Below are positions 1,095-9,824 of a stretch of 40,357 nt of DNA, piece by piece. Every line of letters begins with the position of its first letter. The first letter of the stretch is position 1. The DNA is from Blastocatellia bacterium (GTDB taxonomy: Bacteria > Acidobacteriota > Blastocatellia > HR10 > J050). A program made the translations under genes and the position numbers. The DNA is taken from assembly GCA_026985075.1 (NCBI GenBank), contig JALSQX010000056.1:1-40357 (forward strand), in the 5' to 3' direction. Below the pieces are notes generated by a model. It worked only from the letters and a program-made list of their open reading frames with translations, ran no database searches and was not told where the DNA came from.

Positions 1095-1177
1095 GAGGAT
1101 CGCGTCCTTTCACTGACGGCCGCTCTTACTGACAATCCCGGCTGCCTGTTTTCGACTCCCTTGGACATCGCCCCGAG

Positions 1178-1205
1178 CATATAGCAAGGATCGATTGTCG
1201 ATCAA
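1178..1205 (-). promoter_or_regulatory. Extended -10 promoter with internal inverted repeat, for the methyltransferase
   Basis: On the minus strand TTGATC (1205-1200) and TATATG (1183-1178) are 16 bases apart. The -10 is preceded by TGC, an extended -10 arrangement. A perfect inverted repeat GATCGA-TTG-TCGATC (1189-1203) covers the -35 and spacer and could be an operator. The expected start near 1171 gives a leader of about 77 bases. Confidence 0.45.
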
Positions 1206-1316
1206 TGAGGAACTCACATCAATCCGGAATGGCGGCCAACGCTGGTGAGATTACGGCATGAAAGCGTTCCGGATCTTCTGCCATGAAGAACGCACTTGGT
1301 GAGAGCCCGTGTCCCT

Positions 1317-1345
1317 TTGACATTCCCACCGATGAACGCTATACT
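1317..1345 (+). promoter_or_regulatory. Near-consensus sigma-70 promoter of the efflux operon
   Basis: TTGACA (1317-1322), a 17-base spacer, then TATACT (1340-1345): 11 of 12 consensus positions at ideal spacing. Transcription would begin near 1352, just before the ATG at 1364. This excludes the in-frame upstream ATG at 1283. The 17-base spacer argues against a MerR-type promoter, which uses 19-20. It is probably the main promoter for the downstream metal-efflux genes. Confidence 0.7.
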
Positions 1346-1363
1346 CGCTCCCCTATTGATATC

Positions 1364-1717
1364 ATGATGCGGCGGTTCGTAACTCTGATCTTGCTCGCCA
1401 TACCAGCCATTGATCTGGTGACGCCCGGAATCTGCCCGGAAGACCTTCAAGGATTGATGCTCTCTCCTGGATTTCAGCAACAGATGACGTCCTCACCAGA
1501 GGCCTCACTGATCGGGCAAGTTCCCTCATCGGATCAACCTGGGAGACCCGTTGCTCCCATTGACGAAGACTGTTTCTGCTGCTGCCAGCATATCACGCCG
1601 CAGCCCATCTTCATATGGCCGTCGCCGGCACCTCGACCGGACCTCACCAGAAGAGAGTTGCCACCGTTTCTCGCTCCATCAATCGATCCACTCGATCATC
1701 CTCCCCGACGTTCCTGA
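1364..1717 (+). CDS. Small secreted protein with C-F-C-C-C cluster, first gene of efflux operon
   Basis: 117 residues. The start at 1364 was chosen because the promoter lies at 1317-1345, inside any longer frame. Residues 1-24 are an export signal (M-M-R-R then a hydrophobic stretch ending near I-C-P), possibly cleaved. The mature part is Pro-rich and low in regular structure. Its one striking motif is D-E-D-C-F-C-C-C-Q-H at about 67-76, with four Cys and a His within seven residues, a plausible thiol metal site in the periplasm. There is no recognisable Shine-Dalgarno and the leader is about 12 bases. The gene leads an operon for an outer-membrane channel, an adaptor, an HME-RND pump and a PII-like protein. 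I do not recognise a named family. A metal sensor or chaperone role is inference from the motif and position. Confidence 0.6.
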   Translation: MMRRFVTLILLAIPAIDLVTPGICPEDLQGLMLSPGFQQQMTSSPEASLIGQVPSSDQPGRPVAPIDEDCFCCCQHITPQPIFIWPSPAPRPDLTRRELPPFLAPSIDPLDHPPRRS

Positions 1718-1837
1718 GTCCATTCACTCTCTTATCCCTCGATACGGCCTCTCGTCTCCTGAGCGAGAGGCGTGAGGAATGAGCATATCAATGAAACTCA
1801 TCTCGTTCCCGAGAGGAGTGATGAGGAGGACGAGTCT

Positions 1838-3127
1838 ATGAAGTGGAAGATCATGGTGCTCTTGAGCATCCTGGGAGGATGGACGCCGTCCATCTTTGGA
1901 CAGGCATCTGCCGTCCCAACCGAGCTGAGCCTGGAGGAGGCCATTCGAATGGCCGTGGAACGGAATCCGGAATTGAAAGCGGCGCGAAAGAATATTGACA
2001 TTGCTCGGGCCAATCTCATCGAGGCCTCCAAGCGGCTCAATCCCGTGCTGACCATCGGTGGGGAGAACTATCCCTTGTTTGAATCTCGTCGGGGAAGTTT
2101 CTTCAACGGCCAGGAACTGACGGCCCGCGTCGACTATGAGATCGAAACATTTGGCAAGCGACGCCTGCGCACCCAGGTGGCACGACAACAGATCGACATT
2201 GAGCGCTTGCGGTATCAGAATATCGAGCGCCAGCTCATATTGCGCGTCAGGCGAGCTTATTTCGAGGTCGTCGTGGCTCAGGCGAACCTCGAACTGGCCG
2301 AACAGATCCTGAAGGACATCGATCAGGTGATCCAACTCGATCGCGTGCGATTCCGCGAAGGCGAAATCTCCGGCGGCGAATTGAAGCGGATCGAAGTCGA
2401 GCGATTGAGATTTCTCGACGACGTGTTCGCCGCCCGGCTCGCCCTGCGCAACGCCAAGAGCACGCTCCTTGCGCTCATGGGGCTGGACGATCTCGACATC
2501 GATTTTCGGGCCGTCGAACCCCTGCCGCTGGATGAACGCCAACCGCGTCAACGGATGGGGATTCCTCCACCGCTTCCCTTGAAGGAGCTAGAACGGTTGG
2601 CCTTGAGTCAACGTCCCGACATGGCTGCCGTCCTTCATACCCGACGGCGAGCCGACACTGAGTTACTCCGCCAGCGCGCGCTGCGTACCTCGAATATCAT
2701 CGTCGGCGGTGGCTATCGGCGCGATTTCGGCATCAATAGCGTCGTCTTCGGAGTAACCATTCCGCTGAAAATTTTTAACCGGAATCAGGGAGGCATTGCT
2801 CGCGCGCTGGCCGAACGCGAACGGGCTGAACATCAAGCCGAGGCCATCGAGCGCCTCATTCGACTGGAGGTGAGAAAGGCTTACAACGCCGTGGAGATCA
2901 ATCGGCAACGGGTGGAATACATTCGACGCGAGTATCTCCAGAAGTCAGAACAATCGCGCAACATCACACTGGCATCCTATCGCTTCGGCGAAGCCAATTT
3001 GATCGACCTGCTGGACGCCGAGCGAGCTTACGCTGCCACCCGGCAAGTGTATAACCAGGCGCTATTCGATTATCGAATGAGTCTCTACGAACTGGGAGCG
3101 GCCATCGGTCTCCCGGTCACAGAGTGA
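1838..3127 (+). CDS. TolC-family outer membrane efflux protein (CzcC-like)
   Basis: 429 residues, the usual length for CzcC/CusC-type channels. A signal peptide spans about 1-25, ending in F-G-Q-A-S-A. Two outer-membrane efflux repeats follow, each opening like L-S-L-E-E-A-I-R-M-A-V-E-R-N-P-E-L. Long helices carry the typical R-A-Y-F-E-V-V-V-A-Q-A-N-L and A-S-Y-R-F-G-E-A-N-L-I-D-L-L-D-A-E-R-A patterns. Trimers should form the outer-membrane channel and periplasmic tunnel of the tripartite pump. The ATG at 1838 is preceded by GAGGAGGA with a 7-base gap, so the longer frame from 1772 is rejected. It lies 120 bases after the Cys-cluster gene and just before the adaptor gene, in the standard C-B-A order. 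Confidence 0.9.
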   Translation: MKWKIMVLLSILGGWTPSIFGQASAVPTELSLEEAIRMAVERNPELKAARKNIDIARANLIEASKRLNPVLTIGGENYPLFESRRGSFFNGQELTARVDYEIETFGKRRLRTQVARQQIDIERLRYQNIERQLILRVRRAYFEVVVAQANLELAEQILKDIDQVIQLDRVRFREGEISGGELKRIEVERLRFLDDVFAARLALRNAKSTLLALMGLDDLDIDFRAVEPLPLDERQPRQRMGIPPPLPLKELERLALSQRPDMAAVLHTRRRADTELLRQRALRTSNIIVGGGYRRDFGINSVVFGVTIPLKIFNRNQGGIARALAERERAEHQAEAIERLIRLEVRKAYNAVEINRQRVEYIRREYLQKSEQSRNITLASYRFGEANLIDLLDAERAYAATRQVYNQALFDYRMSLYELGAAIGLPVTE

Positions 3128-3201
3128 AGGCGAGAAGATGCGAGGGACCTCAGGCATCGAGTCGCCGAGCGGGTCCCCTCTCGACCCAAGGAGAAATGAC
3201 C

Positions 3202-4491
3202 ATGCGTACAGATCGATCATCATCGAGGAGATGGATAGGAGATCGCCGGAAATGGCTCTCCGGAATCGTCGCGCTGATCAGCGCGATCATTCTCGCCATC
3301 GCTGGTCTCTGGTGGGCCAATCGATCGGCTCAGCCACCACTGGCCGAGTCAGCCGAGCACGATGAACCACATGAGGCTGGCGTGATCATCCTCAATCCTC
3401 AAGCTCAGGCCAATATTGGCTTGAAACTCGCCGAAAGCGAGCGGCGGACGGTGACCACGTATATTGAGACGACGGGCACGGTCGCTCCCAACGAGACGCG
3501 GGTGGCGCATATCCGCCCACTGGCGCGGGGGCTGATTGAGAAGGTTCACGTCAAGCTCGGTGACGTTGTGCGCGCCGGCCAGCCGCTCGTCTCTTACGAT
3601 AACATCGAGTTGGGCGAATTGATCGGCGACTACCTGAGCGAACGCGCCCGGCTCGAAGAAGCCCGAGCGCAATTGGAGGTGGCCAGGACATTCCTCGAAC
3701 GAGCAGAACGTTTGATCGAGGTGGAGGCCATCGCCCGCAAGGATTACGAGCTTCGTCAGGCTCAGTACCGAACGGCGCTGGCCACCGTCCGGCGACAGGA
3801 AGCCGACATCGCCAAGATCGAGGAGAAATTGCATCGGTTCGGTCTCACCGATGCGGATATCGAAAGATTACAAACGGGGAGAGAACATCAATTCCACCGG
3901 ACGGCCTCACACAATGTCCTCCGAGCCCCGTTTGACGGCGTGATCATCGCCTATGATGTCGCCGAGGGAGAAGTCGTTGGACCTGATCGCGAGCTGTTCA
4001 CGCTCGTGGATACATCGACGGTGTGGGTCCTCGCCGATGTGTACGAGAAAGATCTCGCCGCCGTGCGAGTCGGTCAGCCGGTAGAGATCCGCGTTCCCGC
4101 CTATCCCCGAGAGACGTTCACCGGTACGATCACCTATATCAGCGATATGATCGAGCCGGAGACGCGAACGGCGCGAGTTCGTTGCGTCGTATCCAATCCG
4201 GATCGGAAACTGAAGCTGGAGATGTTCGCCACTATTCGCATTCCTCGACCAGAGGGACGCCAGGCTATTCTCATTCCCAGCCAGGCCATTCAGGAAATCG
4301 ATGGTCGTCCGATCGCGTTCGTGAAAGTGGGTGCCGATCGATTCGAGAGGCGCGAATTGACGCTCGGCGAACAGACCGATCAATGGGTCGAGGTCCGCTC
4401 GGGCATTCAACCCGGTGAGCTGGTGGTCACGGAGGGGAGTTTCTATCTGAAGTCGATTCTCAAACGGGAGGAGATCGGCGGCGAGCATTGA
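3202..4491 (+). CDS. HME-RND periplasmic adaptor (CzcB-like membrane fusion protein)
   Basis: 429 residues. There is an N-terminal membrane anchor (hydrophobic I-V-A-L-I-S-A-I-I-L-A-I-A-G-L-W-W, about 22-38), then a short acidic/His stretch (E-H-D-E-P-H-E-A). The lipoyl half-motifs are seen at G-L-I-E-K-V-H-V-K-L-G-D-V-V-R-A-G-Q-P-L and A-P-F-D-G-V-I-I-A-Y-D-V-A-E-G-E-V-V, split by a coiled-coil hairpin (L-S-E-R-A-R-L-E-E-A-R). The beta-barrel and membrane-proximal domains follow. It links the inner-membrane pump to the TolC channel. The start at 3202 has AAGGAG 8 bases upstream; the ATG at 3196 lies too close to it, and a GTG-initiated extension overlaps the channel gene. The His-containing segment may take part in metal handling. 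Confidence 0.9.
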   Translation: MRTDRSSSRRWIGDRRKWLSGIVALISAIILAIAGLWWANRSAQPPLAESAEHDEPHEAGVIILNPQAQANIGLKLAESERRTVTTYIETTGTVAPNETRVAHIRPLARGLIEKVHVKLGDVVRAGQPLVSYDNIELGELIGDYLSERARLEEARAQLEVARTFLERAERLIEVEAIARKDYELRQAQYRTALATVRRQEADIAKIEEKLHRFGLTDADIERLQTGREHQFHRTASHNVLRAPFDGVIIAYDVAEGEVVGPDRELFTLVDTSTVWVLADVYEKDLAAVRVGQPVEIRVPAYPRETFTGTITYISDMIEPETRTARVRCVVSNPDRKLKLEMFATIRIPRPEGRQAILIPSQAIQEIDGRPIAFVKVGADRFERRELTLGEQTDQWVEVRSGIQPGELVVTEGSFYLKSILKREEIGGEH

Positions 4492-4930
4492 CGAGAGAGT
4501 CCACCTGCGCGAGGAGCATGGTGACTTTGTCCAGGACGTCCACGACTTTGAGATGAGCGAGGACGATGATTACGGCGGCGGTGACAACATACCATCTCGT
4601 TGTGGTGATCTGCTTCCCGAGCATATGGCCAACGGGCGTGTCCAGGGCTATCACTTCTTGGCTGAGAGCGGCTATGTCCACCCTCAGCTCTTCGCGCAAC
4701 GCCGCTACGCCCACTTTGAGCTCCTCGCGGAATGTCATCAGGTCCTGGCGCAGGAAGGCGTTTTCATCCTTCAGTTCGTCTCCGGCGAGCGGCGCGTCTT
4801 CTCTGGTGGCGACTTTGGCCCAGCCGACTTCTGTGACGCACTCGCCAGTTCCTCTTCGAGGTGGTCCCTTGAGACGCCGATGGCGTCCAGGTTCGGCATA
4901 TTTTGTTGAGAGCCATGTTATCTGGCGCAT
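4460..4930 (-). CDS. Antisense coiled-coil/single-TM small protein, possibly degraded
   Basis: Frame of 156 codons on the strand opposite to the efflux operon, in the unusual 468-base gap between adaptor and pump; it overlaps the adaptor's last 32 bases. The C-terminal two thirds look like a real protein: an amphipathic heptad region (L-R-Q-D-L-M-T-F-R-E-E-L-K...L-R-E-E-L-R-V-D-I-A-A-L, about 60-100), then a hydrophobic segment (W-Y-V-V-T-A-A-V-I-I-V-L-A-H-L, about 112-126). This layout resembles the loose DUF1640-like coiled-coil/TM group. The N-terminal third is Arg/Pro-rich and unconvincing, while another minus frame starting at M-P-N-L-D-A-I-G reads more like a normal start and stops early. 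That suggests a frameshift or an inactivated copy. No good Shine-Dalgarno is seen. It could also be spurious. Confidence 0.45.
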   Translation of the reverse strand: MRQITWLSTKYAEPGRHRRLKGPPRRGTGECVTEVGWAKVATREDAPLAGDELKDENAFLRQDLMTFREELKVGVAALREELRVDIAALSQEVIALDTPVGHMLGKQITTTRWYVVTAAVIIVLAHLKVVDVLDKVTMLLAQVDSLVNARRRSPPV

Positions 4931-4959
4931 GATGTGAGAGCCAGTAGAAAGGAGTGCGT

Positions 4960-7900
4960 ATGCATCGAATCATTGAATTTTCGCTCAAATATCGTTTCTT
5001 GATCATCGTTTTGACGGTGCTCCTCATTGTGACGGGCCTCTATTACCTCCAGCAATTACCGATCGATGCCGTGCCCGATGTCACGCCCAATCAGGTCCAG
5101 GTTTTGACGCGTGCGCCGGGATTGGGCCCGGTGGAAGTAGAAAAGTTCATCACCTTCCCGGTGGAGACGGCCATGAGCGGGTTGCCGGGCGTTGAGAAGA
5201 TCCGCTCCGTATCCCGATTCGGACTCTCAGCCGTCTACATCTACTTCCGGGAAGATATGGACATCTACTTCTGCCGACGTCTGGTCATGGAGCGGCTGCC
5301 ACAGGCCCGGGCGGCTATTCCTCCCGGTTTCGGCGTCCCCGAGATGGGCCCCATTTCGACGGGCCTGGGAGAGATCTATCAGTTCGAGGTGCGCGGCGAG
5401 GGCTACGATCTGATGGAACTGCGTAGCATTCTGGACTGGGATATCGCCTTCAAGCTCCGGTCGGTCCCCGGCGTTGTGGAGGTCAATTCTTACGGCGGCC
5501 AATTGAAGACCTACGAGGTTCAATTAGATGCCGATAAGCTGGTCAGTTACAACCTCTCTCTGGATCAGGTGTTCCGAGCGCTGGAACAGAACAATTCCAA
5601 TTCCGGCGGCGCCTATATCGAGCGACGACAGGAGCAAGTCGTGATTCGTGGTGAAGGGCTCGTCGACACCATAGAAGACATCGAGAACATCGTGGTTGCC
5701 GCCGGAAAAGATGGCACACCTATTTACATCAAAAATCTGGGGCGCGTCGTGATGGCTCCTCGCGTGCGCCAGGGAGCGGTCACCCGCGATGGGCGCGGGG
5801 AGGTGGTGACCGGCGTGGTCATGATGCTCATCGGAGAGAATTCGCGAGTCGTCGTCGATCGCGTCAAGCGCAGAATCGAAGAGATCAAAAAAACGCTTCC
5901 CCCGGGGGTAGAGATCGACACGTACTATGATCGAACTGAACTGGTGCGAAAAACCATTCGCACCGTGATCAAGAACCTGACCGAAGGAGGATTGCTCGTC
6001 ATCGCCATCCTGCTGCTGTTACTGGGGAACCTGCGTGGTGGATTGATGGTGGCGTCGGCCATTCCTTTGTCCATGTTGTTCGCCTTCACCGGCATGGTTT
6101 ATGCCGGGCTATCTGGAAATCTCATGAGCCTGGGAGCCATTGATTTCGGCCTCATCGTCGATGGCTCGGTGGTGATGATCGAAAACATCGTTCGCAAACT
6201 CTCGGAGAAAAAAACGACCCACCCGGGTCGTCTGGCCGTCATTCTCGACGCCGCACGAGAAGTGGCCCGCCCCGTTTTCTTCGCCGTGCTCATCATTATC
6301 ATCGTGTATCTGCCCGTCCTCACGCTCGAGGGCGTCGAAGGAAAGATGTTTCGACCGATGGCGCTGACCGTCATTTTCGCCCTCTGTGGATCGTTGATTC
6401 TGGCGTTGACTCTCATGCCCACGCTGGCTTCGCTGTTTTTCCGCAAACCGCCCGGAGAGAGCGAAACCTGGATCATTCGCCAGATCAAGCCGCGGTACAC
6501 CCGGCTCCTGGAGAGAGCCATCGCTCATCCTGTACTGACGGTGCTCATTGCGGCCACCATATTCGCCGGCAGCGTGGCGCTGACGCCATTGATGGGAGCC
6601 GAATTCATTCCCAAGCTGGATGAAGGAACCATCGCTCTCCAAGCATGGCGACTGCCATCGACGTCGCTCACCGAATCGATTCGCAGTACCACGCTCATTG
6701 AGAAGATCCTGAAGCCGTTCCCCGAAGTCATCACCGTCGTCTCTCGCACCGGCCAGGCAGAGATTCCCACCGATCCCATGGGCATCGAGACGAGTGATAT
6801 TTATGTCATTCTCAAACCCCGTGACGAGTGGGTGACGGCCAAAACCAAAGAGGAGCTCATCGCCAAAATGGATGCCGCCCTCAAGGAGAATGTGCCGGGG
6901 AATATCTTCAGTTACTCGCAGCCCATCGAACTCCGCGTGCAGGAACTCATCGCCGGCGTCCGTTCAGACGTGGCCATCACCATTTATGGTGATGATCTGG
7001 ATGAATTGAGGCGCGTGGGAGAGGAGGTGGCGCGCGTTGTCTCGCGCGTCCCGGGGGCGGCCGATACCAAACTGGAACAAACGGCGGGACTCCCCTACTT
7101 GCGAGTGCGTATTAATCGGGAGCAGATTGCTCGATATGGAATCAACGCCTCGCAGATCCTGTCGGTCGTCGAAGCCATGGGTGGCCGGGTGGTGGGTCAA
7201 GTTCTGGAAGGGCAGAAGCGGTTCTTGCTGCAAGTTCGCTTTCAGCGGCAGGATCGCGCCGACGTGGAGAAAATCAAAAACCTGAAGGTCGCCGATCCGC
7301 GTGGCCGGCTCATTCCGCTCAGTCAACTGGCCGACATCTGGATCGAGGAAGGCCCCGCCCAGATCAGTCGGGAGAATATTCATCGTCGGATCACCGTAGA
7401 GACCAACGTGCGCGGACGCGATCTGGCCAGTTTCGTGGCCGAAGCCCGGCGGGCCGTCGACCAGCAAGTGGATTTGCCCGTGGGATACTGGATCGAATGG
7501 GGTGGTCAGTTTGAGAATCTCCAGCGCGCCAGCCGACGGCTGGCCATCGTCGTTCCGCTGGCGTTGTTTCTCATTTTCGTCCTGCTCTATACGACCTTCA
7601 ATTCGGTCAAGCCGGCGCTGCTCATCTATTTGAACGTGCCCATGGCGGCCACGGGCGGAATTTTGGCGCTGTTTGTCCGTGGCATGCCGTTCAGCATCTC
7701 GGCCGGGGTGGGATTCATTGCGTTGTTCGGTGTGGCCGTGCTCAACGGCGTCGTCCTCATCAGTTACATCAACCAACTCCGACGCGAAGGCGTTCCCGTC
7801 CAGGAGGCGGCACGGAGAGGAGCACTGGTGCGACTGCGACCGGTACTCATGACCGCGTTGGTGGCCAGCCTGGGATTCCTGCCCATGGCGACATCGACCA

Positions 7901-8094
7901 GCGCTGGCGCCGAGGTACAACGACCATTGGCCACGGTGGTCATTGGGGGATTGATCACGTCCACACTATTGACGCTGGTTGTTCTCCCGGCCATCTATCG
8001 GTGGTTTCATCGGGATGAACCCATCACGGCGAATGCCCCGTCGCCGCAAGCGCCTCAGAACAACAACGATGTCACCGATGAATCGGCGGATTGA
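4960..8094 (+). CDS. HME-RND heavy-metal efflux pump (CzcA-type)
   Basis: 1044 residues, normal for HME-RND pumps. An N-terminal TM helix (about 10-30) precedes the first periplasmic domain, which carries the conserved D-A-V-P-D-V-T-P-N-Q-V-Q-V. TM4 contains D395-F-G-x-x-x-D401-G, the proton-relay signature of the divalent-cation (CzcA/CnrA-like) subgroups. The Cu/Ag subgroup (CusA) instead has an I-G-A-M-V-D-A-type TM4. A second large periplasmic loop and a second TM bundle complete the duplicated RND architecture. Export of divalent cations such as Zn, Co, Cd or Ni is therefore the better guess, although the neighbours include Met- and Cys-rich proteins. The ATG at 4960 has AAAGGAG 5 bases upstream. 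The C-terminal tail is polar and cytoplasmic; the PII-like gene follows. Confidence 0.93.
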   Translation: MHRIIEFSLKYRFLIIVLTVLLIVTGLYYLQQLPIDAVPDVTPNQVQVLTRAPGLGPVEVEKFITFPVETAMSGLPGVEKIRSVSRFGLSAVYIYFREDMDIYFCRRLVMERLPQARAAIPPGFGVPEMGPISTGLGEIYQFEVRGEGYDLMELRSILDWDIAFKLRSVPGVVEVNSYGGQLKTYEVQLDADKLVSYNLSLDQVFRALEQNNSNSGGAYIERRQEQVVIRGEGLVDTIEDIENIVVAAGKDGTPIYIKNLGRVVMAPRVRQGAVTRDGRGEVVTGVVMMLIGENSRVVVDRVKRRIEEIKKTLPPGVEIDTYYDRTELVRKTIRTVIKNLTEGGLLVIAILLLLLGNLRGGLMVASAIPLSMLFAFTGMVYAGLSGNLMSLGAIDFGLIVDGSVVMIENIVRKLSEKKTTHPGRLAVILDAAREVARPVFFAVLIIIIVYLPVLTLEGVEGKMFRPMALTVIFALCGSLILALTLMPTLASLFFRKPPGESETWIIRQIKPRYTRLLERAIAHPVLTVLIAATIFAGSVALTPLMGAEFIPKLDEGTIALQAWRLPSTSLTESIRSTTLIEKILKPFPEVITVVSRTGQAEIPTDPMGIETSDIYVILKPRDEWVTAKTKEELIAKMDAALKENVPGNIFSYSQPIELRVQELIAGVRSDVAITIYGDDLDELRRVGEEVARVVSRVPGAADTKLEQTAGLPYLRVRINREQIARYGINASQILSVVEAMGGRVVGQVLEGQKRFLLQVRFQRQDRADVEKIKNLKVADPRGRLIPLSQLADIWIEEGPAQISRENIHRRITVETNVRGRDLASFVAEARRAVDQQVDLPVGYWIEWGGQFENLQRASRRLAIVVPLALFLIFVLLYTTFNSVKPALLIYLNVPMAATGGILALFVRGMPFSISAGVGFIALFGVAVLNGVVLISYINQLRREGVPVQEAARRGALVRLRPVLMTALVASLGFLPMATSTSAGAEVQRPLATVVIGGLITSTLLTLVVLPAIYRWFHRDEPITANAPSPQAPQNNNDVTDESAD

Positions 8095-8150: not shown

Positions 8151-8492
8151 ATGAAGAAGATCGAAGCGATCATTCAACCGTTCATGCTGGTCAAGGTGAC
8201 TCGAGCCCTGCAGGACCATGAGCGCGTCAGTGGCATGACAGCCACCGACGCGCGTGGGTTCGGCCGGCAGCGCGCGGCCAACGCCAAAGACGTGATCAGC
8301 GAAGGCATGATCCAGTTGGCGAGAAAGATCAAAATCGAAGTGGTAGTTTCCGATGATCTCGTGGATGAAGTGGTCGAGATCATCAAAACGCACGCGCACA
8401 CTGGCAACGTGGGTGACGGCAAGATCTTCGTCACCGATGTTGAGCGGGCCATCCGGATCAGAGACTTTGCTGAAGGGGAGATCGCCGTATGA
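8151..8492 (+). CDS. PII-like signalling protein of the metal-efflux group (PII-NG type)
   Basis: 113 residues with the ferredoxin-like PII fold: M-K-K-I-E-A-I-I-Q-P-F-M-L at the N-terminus, G-F-G-R-Q at the base of the T-loop, and T-G-N-V-G-D-G-K-I-F-V, the nucleotide-binding PII signature. The T-loop has canonical length, but aligning G-F-G-R-Q and K-I-K-I-E puts Asp where uridylylated PII proteins have Tyr51, so UTase control is unlikely. PII relatives located next to CusABC/CzcCBA pumps are a known group (PII-NG). Binding of a nucleotide or metal to tune the pump is the usual proposal. The ATG at 8151 is preceded by AAGGAGG 4 bases away. The gene starts 56 bases after the pump gene and ends the operon. 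Confidence 0.85.
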   Translation: MKKIEAIIQPFMLVKVTRALQDHERVSGMTATDARGFGRQRAANAKDVISEGMIQLARKIKIEVVVSDDLVDEVVEIIKTHAHTGNVGDGKIFVTDVERAIRIRDFAEGEIAV

Positions 8493-9233: not shown

Positions 9234-9710
9234 TCACTTGTTGTCATTCTGGCGGTCGCTCTTCTCTTTCCCCTTCATCATCTGCATCATCTCCTTCATC
9301 ATCGGGCACATGGATGGGGAGGCGGCTCCCTTCTCCATCCTCAAGTGGTCCATCATGTGACGCATCATGTCCATCTGCATCATCATCATCTGCTGGCGCA
9401 TCTTCCGTCGCTGCGTCACCAACTCATTGATGACGTCGGCTATGGCATCGACTTTCTTCTTGCCCCGCGCAGCATTCATGACGGCCACTTTCTCATCCAG
9501 GCGACTGTCCATGGCTTTCATCCGGGACATCATCTCCCGCTGCTTATTCATCATCATCCGGCATTGCTCCATCATGGGCTGATGCTTCATCCCGGGTTGT
9601 TGCTCATTGACCTGCTCCTGCCGCAGCGATGAAGGGGTATGCGGCTGAGCGAATAACCCCGCCGGAATGACGAATGCGATCAAGATCGTCCAAAGCGATT
9701 TCATCTTCAT
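9234..9710 (-). CDS. Met-rich periplasmic protein, probable metal binder
   Basis: 158 residues. A signal peptide (M-K-M-K-S-L-W-T-I-L-I-A-F-V-I-P-A-G-L-F-A-Q, about 1-22) precedes a mature helical protein with 29 Met in roughly 136 residues. Clusters include M-M-E-Q-C-R-M-M-M, Q-Q-M-M-M-M-Q-M-D-M-M-R-H-M-M and C-P-M-M-K-E-M-M-Q-M-M, with two Cys. The Met and Q/K/R/E pattern suggests long amphipathic helices, like Met-rich Cu(I)/Ag(I)-binding periplasmic proteins. I do not assign it to a named family. GGAGGAGGTG lies directly upstream, so ATG 9710 (spacing 5) or the in-frame ATG 9704 (spacing 8) may start it. It is 114 bases downstream of the PQQ-propeller gene on the same strand and could be read from that gene's sigma-54 promoter. 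Confidence 0.75.
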   Translation of the reverse strand: MKMKSLWTILIAFVIPAGLFAQPHTPSSLRQEQVNEQQPGMKHQPMMEQCRMMMNKQREMMSRMKAMDSRLDEKVAVMNAARGKKKVDAIADVINELVTQRRKMRQQMMMMQMDMMRHMMDHLRMEKGAASPSMCPMMKEMMQMMKGKEKSDRQNDNK

Positions 9711-9824
9711 CACCTCCTCCGTATTTTGTTGAGTGAGAATGAGACTGGACAGGATCGGCTCGGCCAGCCTCAATGAACATCGACCGATCGATGGTCGCGC
9801 GCTCTCTGAGGGAGTGGAACTCGT

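Follow-up and report, generated by a model that had tools for sequence, protein, structure and literature searches.

A small cysteine-bearing ORF ahead of an efflux operon

The window, a stretch of 40,357 nucleotides from a Blastocatellia bacterium, carries a short open reading frame (ORF) followed on the same strand by the genes of a tripartite efflux system. The features that bear on this ORF are the following.

1317..1345 (+), sigma70-like promoter TTGACA-N17-TATACT, 11 of 12 consensus matches
1364..1717 (+), leader ORF, 117 aa, putatively exported, with a Cys cluster and a C-terminal Pro-Pro
1433..1435 (+), Cys24, conserved, directly past the hydrophobic N-terminus (Cys in 33 of 37 alignment rows)
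1571..1591 (+), C70-F-C-C-C-Q-H76, a CxxxC-containing candidate metal sensor
1697..1717 (+), H-P-P-R-R-S-stop at the C-terminus, proposed site of ribosome arrest
1718..1837 (+), 120-nt intergenic region from leader to tolC, with the tolC Shine-Dalgarno sequence partly paired in the predicted fold
1838..3127 (+), TolC/CzcC-type outer membrane efflux protein (OEP)
3202..4491 (+), CzcB/CusB-type periplasmic adaptor (HlyD_D23)
4960..8094 (+), CusA/CzcA-family RND permease (TIGR00914; ACR_tran), without the CusA Met triad
8151..8492 (+), P-II family protein, last gene of the operon

An earlier note on this DNA had described a near-consensus promoter, four Cys and a His within seven residues, and a full C-B-A efflux set behind the ORF, and all three hold. 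The promoter at 1317-1345 is one observed site where 0.3 are expected in shuffled sequence, C70-F-C-C-C-Q-H76 does pack four Cys and one His into seven residues, and OEP, HlyD_D23 and ACR_tran genes follow. The ORF most likely begins with the ATG at 1364 (or 1367) and ends with the stop codon at 1715-1717. A longer mechanical ORF from 1283 begins upstream of the promoter; position 1364 is preferred because it fits both the promoter and the homologues. The -10 box and this ATG are 18 nt apart, and no Shine-Dalgarno sequence is evident by eye in that interval.

The N-terminus of the leader protein is a hydrophobic stretch, a putative export signal, with no lipobox before C24, and its tail is Pro-rich, with the Pro pair at P113-P114. 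The ORF matches no Pfam or NCBIfam family. A structure model based on a shallow alignment of seven sequences predicts no fold (pLDDT 54, pTM 0.16), a profile search of the PDB returned matches confined to the signal segment, and a search of plasmids returned no credible match.

Several further observations concern the operon itself. The adaptor and RND genes are separated by 468 nt (4492-4959), a gap that holds a 156-aa minus-strand ORF (4460-4930) with no significant Pfam match; in most relatives the two genes are nearly adjacent. Adjoining the operon on the minus strand (9234-9773) is a Met-rich, exported-looking ORF of 179 aa with two Cys and no Pfam family, which is possibly another metal-binding protein. 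Among the 55 other loci of the family described below, 13 have a P-II match 3′ of the RND gene; the P-II protein may therefore partner the pump as a sensor of metal or nucleotide.

Conservation and genomic context of the leader family

Homologues were sought with tblastn in 396 genomes of the phylum and by a scan of GTDB contigs, and the named ones are from Acidobacteria or Pyrinomonadaceae MAGs. Weak tblastn matches past the first dozen were mostly due to chance (L012, L014 and L016 were inspected) and were dropped before the family was assembled. A 16-sequence profile identifies members in 34 of the 162 genomes searched in the class, and a 28-sequence profile identifies them in 31 of the 396 genomes of the phylum. 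In an alignment of 37 rows, which leaves out L081 (interrupted by stops) and L095 (at a contig end), every row has the first core Cys and the two C-terminal Pro, followed in frequency by the His (36 rows), the last core Cys and the early Cys (33 each), an Asp past the hydrophobic stretch (32) and the Phe (29), and roughly half of the protein is unconserved linker. This conservation is partly built in, because members were picked by similarity. The earlier note had allowed for a Cys cluster that is not conserved in homologues; the profile search found the cluster conserved. Because the homologues keep both the cluster and the position before a pump, its occurrence in the window is not due to chance.

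The earlier note had also treated the Cys cluster as the only structured feature of the protein. The most conserved feature of the family is instead the Pro-Pro, three residues from the stop. Measured without alignment, exactly three residues follow the pair in 33 of 36 members, the exceptions being L092 (5), L093 (26) and L103 (2), and the pair lies 36-37 residues beyond the last position of the Cys/His motif in 27 of the 36 (full range 36-42). Among 50 members tallied, the residue before the pair is mostly H, R or Q and that after it is always R, K or Q. All four Pro codons are in use there (CCT 46, CCA 25, CCG 23, CCC 6), and dN/dS is 0.20-0.39 in those pairs, 8 of 11, whose dS is unsaturated; therefore, selection acts on the peptide.

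This C-terminal end outlasts the sensor, as it is kept where the Cys cluster is eroded. The leader of G383 has CPCH as its cluster and FRPPVLA as its end, and the leaders of three genomes of genus g12 (G096, G123 and G165) have one Cys left in the cluster region and end in FHPPRLT or FHPPRHS. The profile search missed the leaders of G383, G123 and G165, and its match to that of G096 is marginal (E 4e-4).

Gene order was examined at 56 loci, 52 of which have enough downstream sequence. The four left out are L068, L095 and two borderline members, L170 and L168, the latter without the Pro-Pro. At 51 of the 52 loci, the leader directly precedes a gene for a tripartite pump (50 confirmed, and L076 by eye). 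The next gene encodes TolC/OEP in 47 cases, among them L076, which has no Pfam match, and L091, in which the gene is truncated. It encodes the adaptor (MFP) in four cases and DsbB in one, and TolC is not the first gene of the operon in L082, L090, L099 and L171. The proposed link to efflux genes stands at these 51 loci, although not as an invariable one. In L087 (G420:C281, 2283-2745 in the oriented locus), a leader with CFCCCPH...RPPRIA is followed by a DsbB gene and then by a thioredoxin/DsbA-type gene, with no pump.

A check that begins with the operon is free of the bias introduced by selection for similarity. RND genes resembling that of the window were listed in 29 genomes of the class. 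At an identity of at least 55% there are 16 operons, one of which lies at a contig start and cannot be judged; a leader ending in Pro-Pro is present in 13 of the 15 assessable operons, and the other two have no detectable leader. At 43-51% identity, none of the 13 operons examined (18 listed) has one.

The pumps were also compared with known metal transporters. The Met triad of E. coli CusA (573/623/672) corresponds to Q/T/E in the RND protein of the window, and no RND protein of the family has all three Met. Most carry FG(L/I)-VDG-x-V-EN in TM4, a pattern that suggests, by analogy with CzcA, a divalent-cation pump; the window has Asp before the Phe, and five operons deviate from the pattern (L090, L094, L102, L161 and L164). 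The pumps of the family therefore appear to be mostly of the divalent-metal type, as these sequences suggest.

The gap between the leader and the next gene spans 78-299 nt at 28 loci (median about 140, with start codons assigned by heuristic). Of the 39 loci in the first set, 28 offered a plausible start codon for the next gene, and the RNA of these was folded. The tolC Shine-Dalgarno sequence of the window has a mean unpaired probability of 0.38, and values across the 28 loci are mixed (0.11-0.66), with folding energies only slightly below those of shuffled sequences; a stem-loop hiding the Shine-Dalgarno sequence was accordingly set aside as a consistent feature of the family. No Rfam family was found in 1100-5000, and no intrinsic terminator in 1200-1900. 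At 26 of 28 loci, the last 80 codons of the leader have more C than G, to a degree that ranks in the top 5% of downstream windows, and random synonymous recoding yields the same excess (mean z 0.33, with 4 of 28 above 1.64). Because recoding reproduces the excess, which follows amino-acid composition, it is not independent evidence for Rho, and a Rho signal on this basis was rejected. A sigma70 site scoring at least 9 of 12 precedes 7 of 36 leaders compared to 3 of 170 control windows; this frequency is above background, yet most members are without such a site, and a conserved sigma70 promoter was likewise set aside.

A proposed cis-acting metal-responsive leader and its alternatives

We consider it probable that 1364-1717 encodes a cis-acting, metal-responsive leader peptide, a nascent-chain sensor of the CutF/CruR kind that would control the efflux operon behind it. 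Arrest, the identity of the metal, the direction of control and the downstream step are components of this proposal that we infer. In our analysis, the putative export signal, Cys sensor and C-terminal Pro-Pro, the last two some 40 residues apart, constitute the CutF/CruR architecture. A Pro-Pro at a fixed distance from the stop, the absence of a predicted fold and a next gene that can be TolC, MFP or dsbB together point to a leader peptide that acts in cis. Points against this reading are that the motif is not RAPP or RGPP, that structure in the intergenic RNA is inconsistent across the family, and that two of the 15 operons with close RND genes have no detectable leader. Metal sensing, one of the functions suggested in the earlier note, is a likely role given the conserved Cys cluster and the association with efflux operons.

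The leader, located at the 5′ end of the mRNA, would be translated first, and its hydrophobic N-terminus would take the nascent chain to the export machinery. The ribosome tunnel is 30-40 residues long, and thus CFCCCxH, 37-43 residues back, would just be leaving it when the ribosome stands at the [H/R/Q]-P-P-[R/K/Q] codons and the Pro-Pro reaches the peptidyl transferase centre. Metal bound at the cluster (most likely Zn/Cd-like, or Cu(I)) might alter the pulling or folding of the chain and in this way how long the ribosome dwells at Pro-Pro. A ribosome paused there could then promote expression of tolC-mfp-rnd, either because it opens the folded intergenic mRNA or because it denies Rho access. 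Metal would presumably turn expression on, because this is the useful sign for an efflux operon, and the same direction has been published for CutF (PMC9973294). Once released, the peptide would probably be disposable. Pro-Pro with R, K or Q behind it may by itself stall ribosomes only weakly.

The C-terminal Pro-Pro could alternatively be a protein-docking motif. An export signal, a Cys/His cluster and the obligate company of metal efflux genes would also befit a periplasmic metal-binding accessory protein, a CusF- or CzcI-like chaperone or scavenger that acts in trans in its mature form and docks on the pump through this motif; CzcI itself precedes czcC in Cupriavidus and is a suggested sensor (PMC9973294). 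We regard such a role as unlikely, since no fold is predicted, the Pro-Pro is tied to the stop codon and is retained when the Cys cluster is lost, the next gene alternates between TolC and MFP, and the L087 leader heads dsbB-dsbA and not a pump. The history of CutF provides a parallel, in that a chaperone was proposed first (PMC8456105) and this idea gave way to a nascent-chain role (PMC9973294).

It is also conceivable, but quite improbable, that the leader senses export or thiol/redox state instead of metal, with Cys oxidation or translocation force setting the arrest. Monitors of the SecM/VemP type are built on the same plan, the L087 leader precedes dsbB and a thioredoxin gene, and RAPP-type leaders have been described before disulfide-bond genes (Fujiwara 2025, PMC12992588). 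However, a metal-type pump follows the leader at the remaining 51 of the 52 loci, and the Cys residues have a conserved His as neighbour, which suits metal. A further alternative is a cap, a factor for assembly or gating of the tripartite pump whose C-terminus binds TolC, adaptor or RND. Such a cap would explain the operon position and the tight link to one RND clade, but is very improbable because the association persists where TolC is not first and because roughly half of the sequence is linker without conservation. Neither a chaperone nor a cap, both raised in the earlier note, predicts a Pro-Pro fixed three residues before the stop, and the structure model from the shallow alignment offers no fold for either.

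If the leader peptide reading is extended to the whole family, a broader proposal can be made, which we offer tentatively as possible rather than probable. Throughout the phylum, RND pumps for divalent metals would be switched on by a class of leaders that sense metal as nascent chains, through four Cys and a His, and that carry [H/R/Q]PP[R/K/Q]-x-x-stop as a new arrest motif. Some lineages would have kept this arrest end while the sensor was reduced (Chloracidobacterium-like genomes) or re-targeted to dsbB-dsbA, which would illustrate how the input of such leaders can change. Control of HME-RND pumps is usually ascribed to two-component systems or repressors, and here it may reside in an ORF outside the Pfam and NCBIfam families. 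If so, nascent-chain metal sensing would reach another phylum, probably for divalent metals, and small leaders before czc/cus-like operons would acquire a concrete role. The family would also supply a new candidate for an arrest motif, together with naturally occurring variants whose sensor has eroded.

Comparison with known leader systems

A search of the literature outside bioRxiv, covering PMC9973294 in its main text, found no paper on this leader family in Acidobacteria, and the word “Acidobacteria” does not occur in that main text. Small metal-linked leaders described in other bacteria nonetheless provide close points of comparison.

CopL, a metal-binding leader, heads copAB and in this respect differs from our family. 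Compared by model NF033807, whose curated cut-off is 40 bits, 4 of 16 and 6 of 28 members gave CopL-like matches in two scans, the best scoring 21.5 bits (E 2.8e-4), below the cut-off; the window protein gave no match. The best match spans residues 53-135, starting ahead of the Cys motif and reaching the Pro-Pro at the C-terminus. CzcI of Cupriavidus metallidurans, compared by its description, is likewise a small exported protein directly before czcCBA, but is said to be without the C-terminal proline motif (PMC9973294) that our family carries.

CruR of Bordetella pertussis (DUF2946, PF11162) has CxxC and RAPP 45 residues apart, with RAPP three residues from the end. Copper relieves its arrest, upon which Rho stops transcription and an importer is turned off, and the spacer is 162 bp (PMC9426467); the arrest has been demonstrated by toeprinting (PMC12992588). 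The window leader shares with CruR the plan of a small, putatively exported protein with a Cys motif, Pro-Pro three residues from the end, conserved spacing, a long spacer and a position at the head of an operon. The motifs differ, CxxC...RAPP in CruR and CFCCCQH with HPPR in the window protein. The DUF2946 model does not match the window protein and gives weak matches in 8 of 28 family members (best E 0.0021). Homology to DUF2946 was rejected, as hhalign comparison with seven DUF2946 proteins from this phylum gave an alignment confined to the signal segment. Classic DUF2946 proteins with CxxC...R[A/G]PP near the end occur in the same phylum (L105, L106, L107, L108, L109, L111 and L116), and our family is therefore a separate one with the same plan. 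On the evidence of their motifs, two leader families coexist in the phylum.

In layout the window leader also resembles CutF of Rhodobacter capsulatus, a protein of 118 aa in which C69xxxC73 and the C-terminal PEPEGPPPRL are both needed, together with a signal peptide and a stem-loop before cutO (PMC8456105; PMC9973294). The Pro-rich end of CutF alone reportedly causes no strong stalling, and the commonest next neighbour of CutF-like genes is an OEP gene (PMC9973294). Judged by the definition of CutF-like proteins in the same source (PMC9973294), the window leader has 117 aa where fewer than 150 are specified, has P113-P114 within the last 15 residues, and lies on the strand of tolC and 120 nt from it, within the permitted spacer; for the cleaved Sec signal peptide, the hydrophobic N-terminal stretch is a putative counterpart. 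Both proteins are of about 118 aa, with a Sec-type N-terminus and a CxxxC separated by some 40 residues from the PP(P)R near the C-terminus, and both head a metal operon. In contrast to CutF, our family has four Cys and a His in seven residues and ends in [H/R/Q]PP[R/K/Q], and the window leader heads a divalent-type RND operon instead of a cutO operon, with a 120-nt spacer that is without a conserved stem-loop hiding the Shine-Dalgarno sequence. The earlier note had expected such a protein to be new if confirmed, which is true in part. CutF-like proteins, which form 29 clusters in PMC9973294, are already in print as neighbours before OEP genes and before RND operons; what appears new, judged against the main text of that paper, is a separate branch with motifs of its own.
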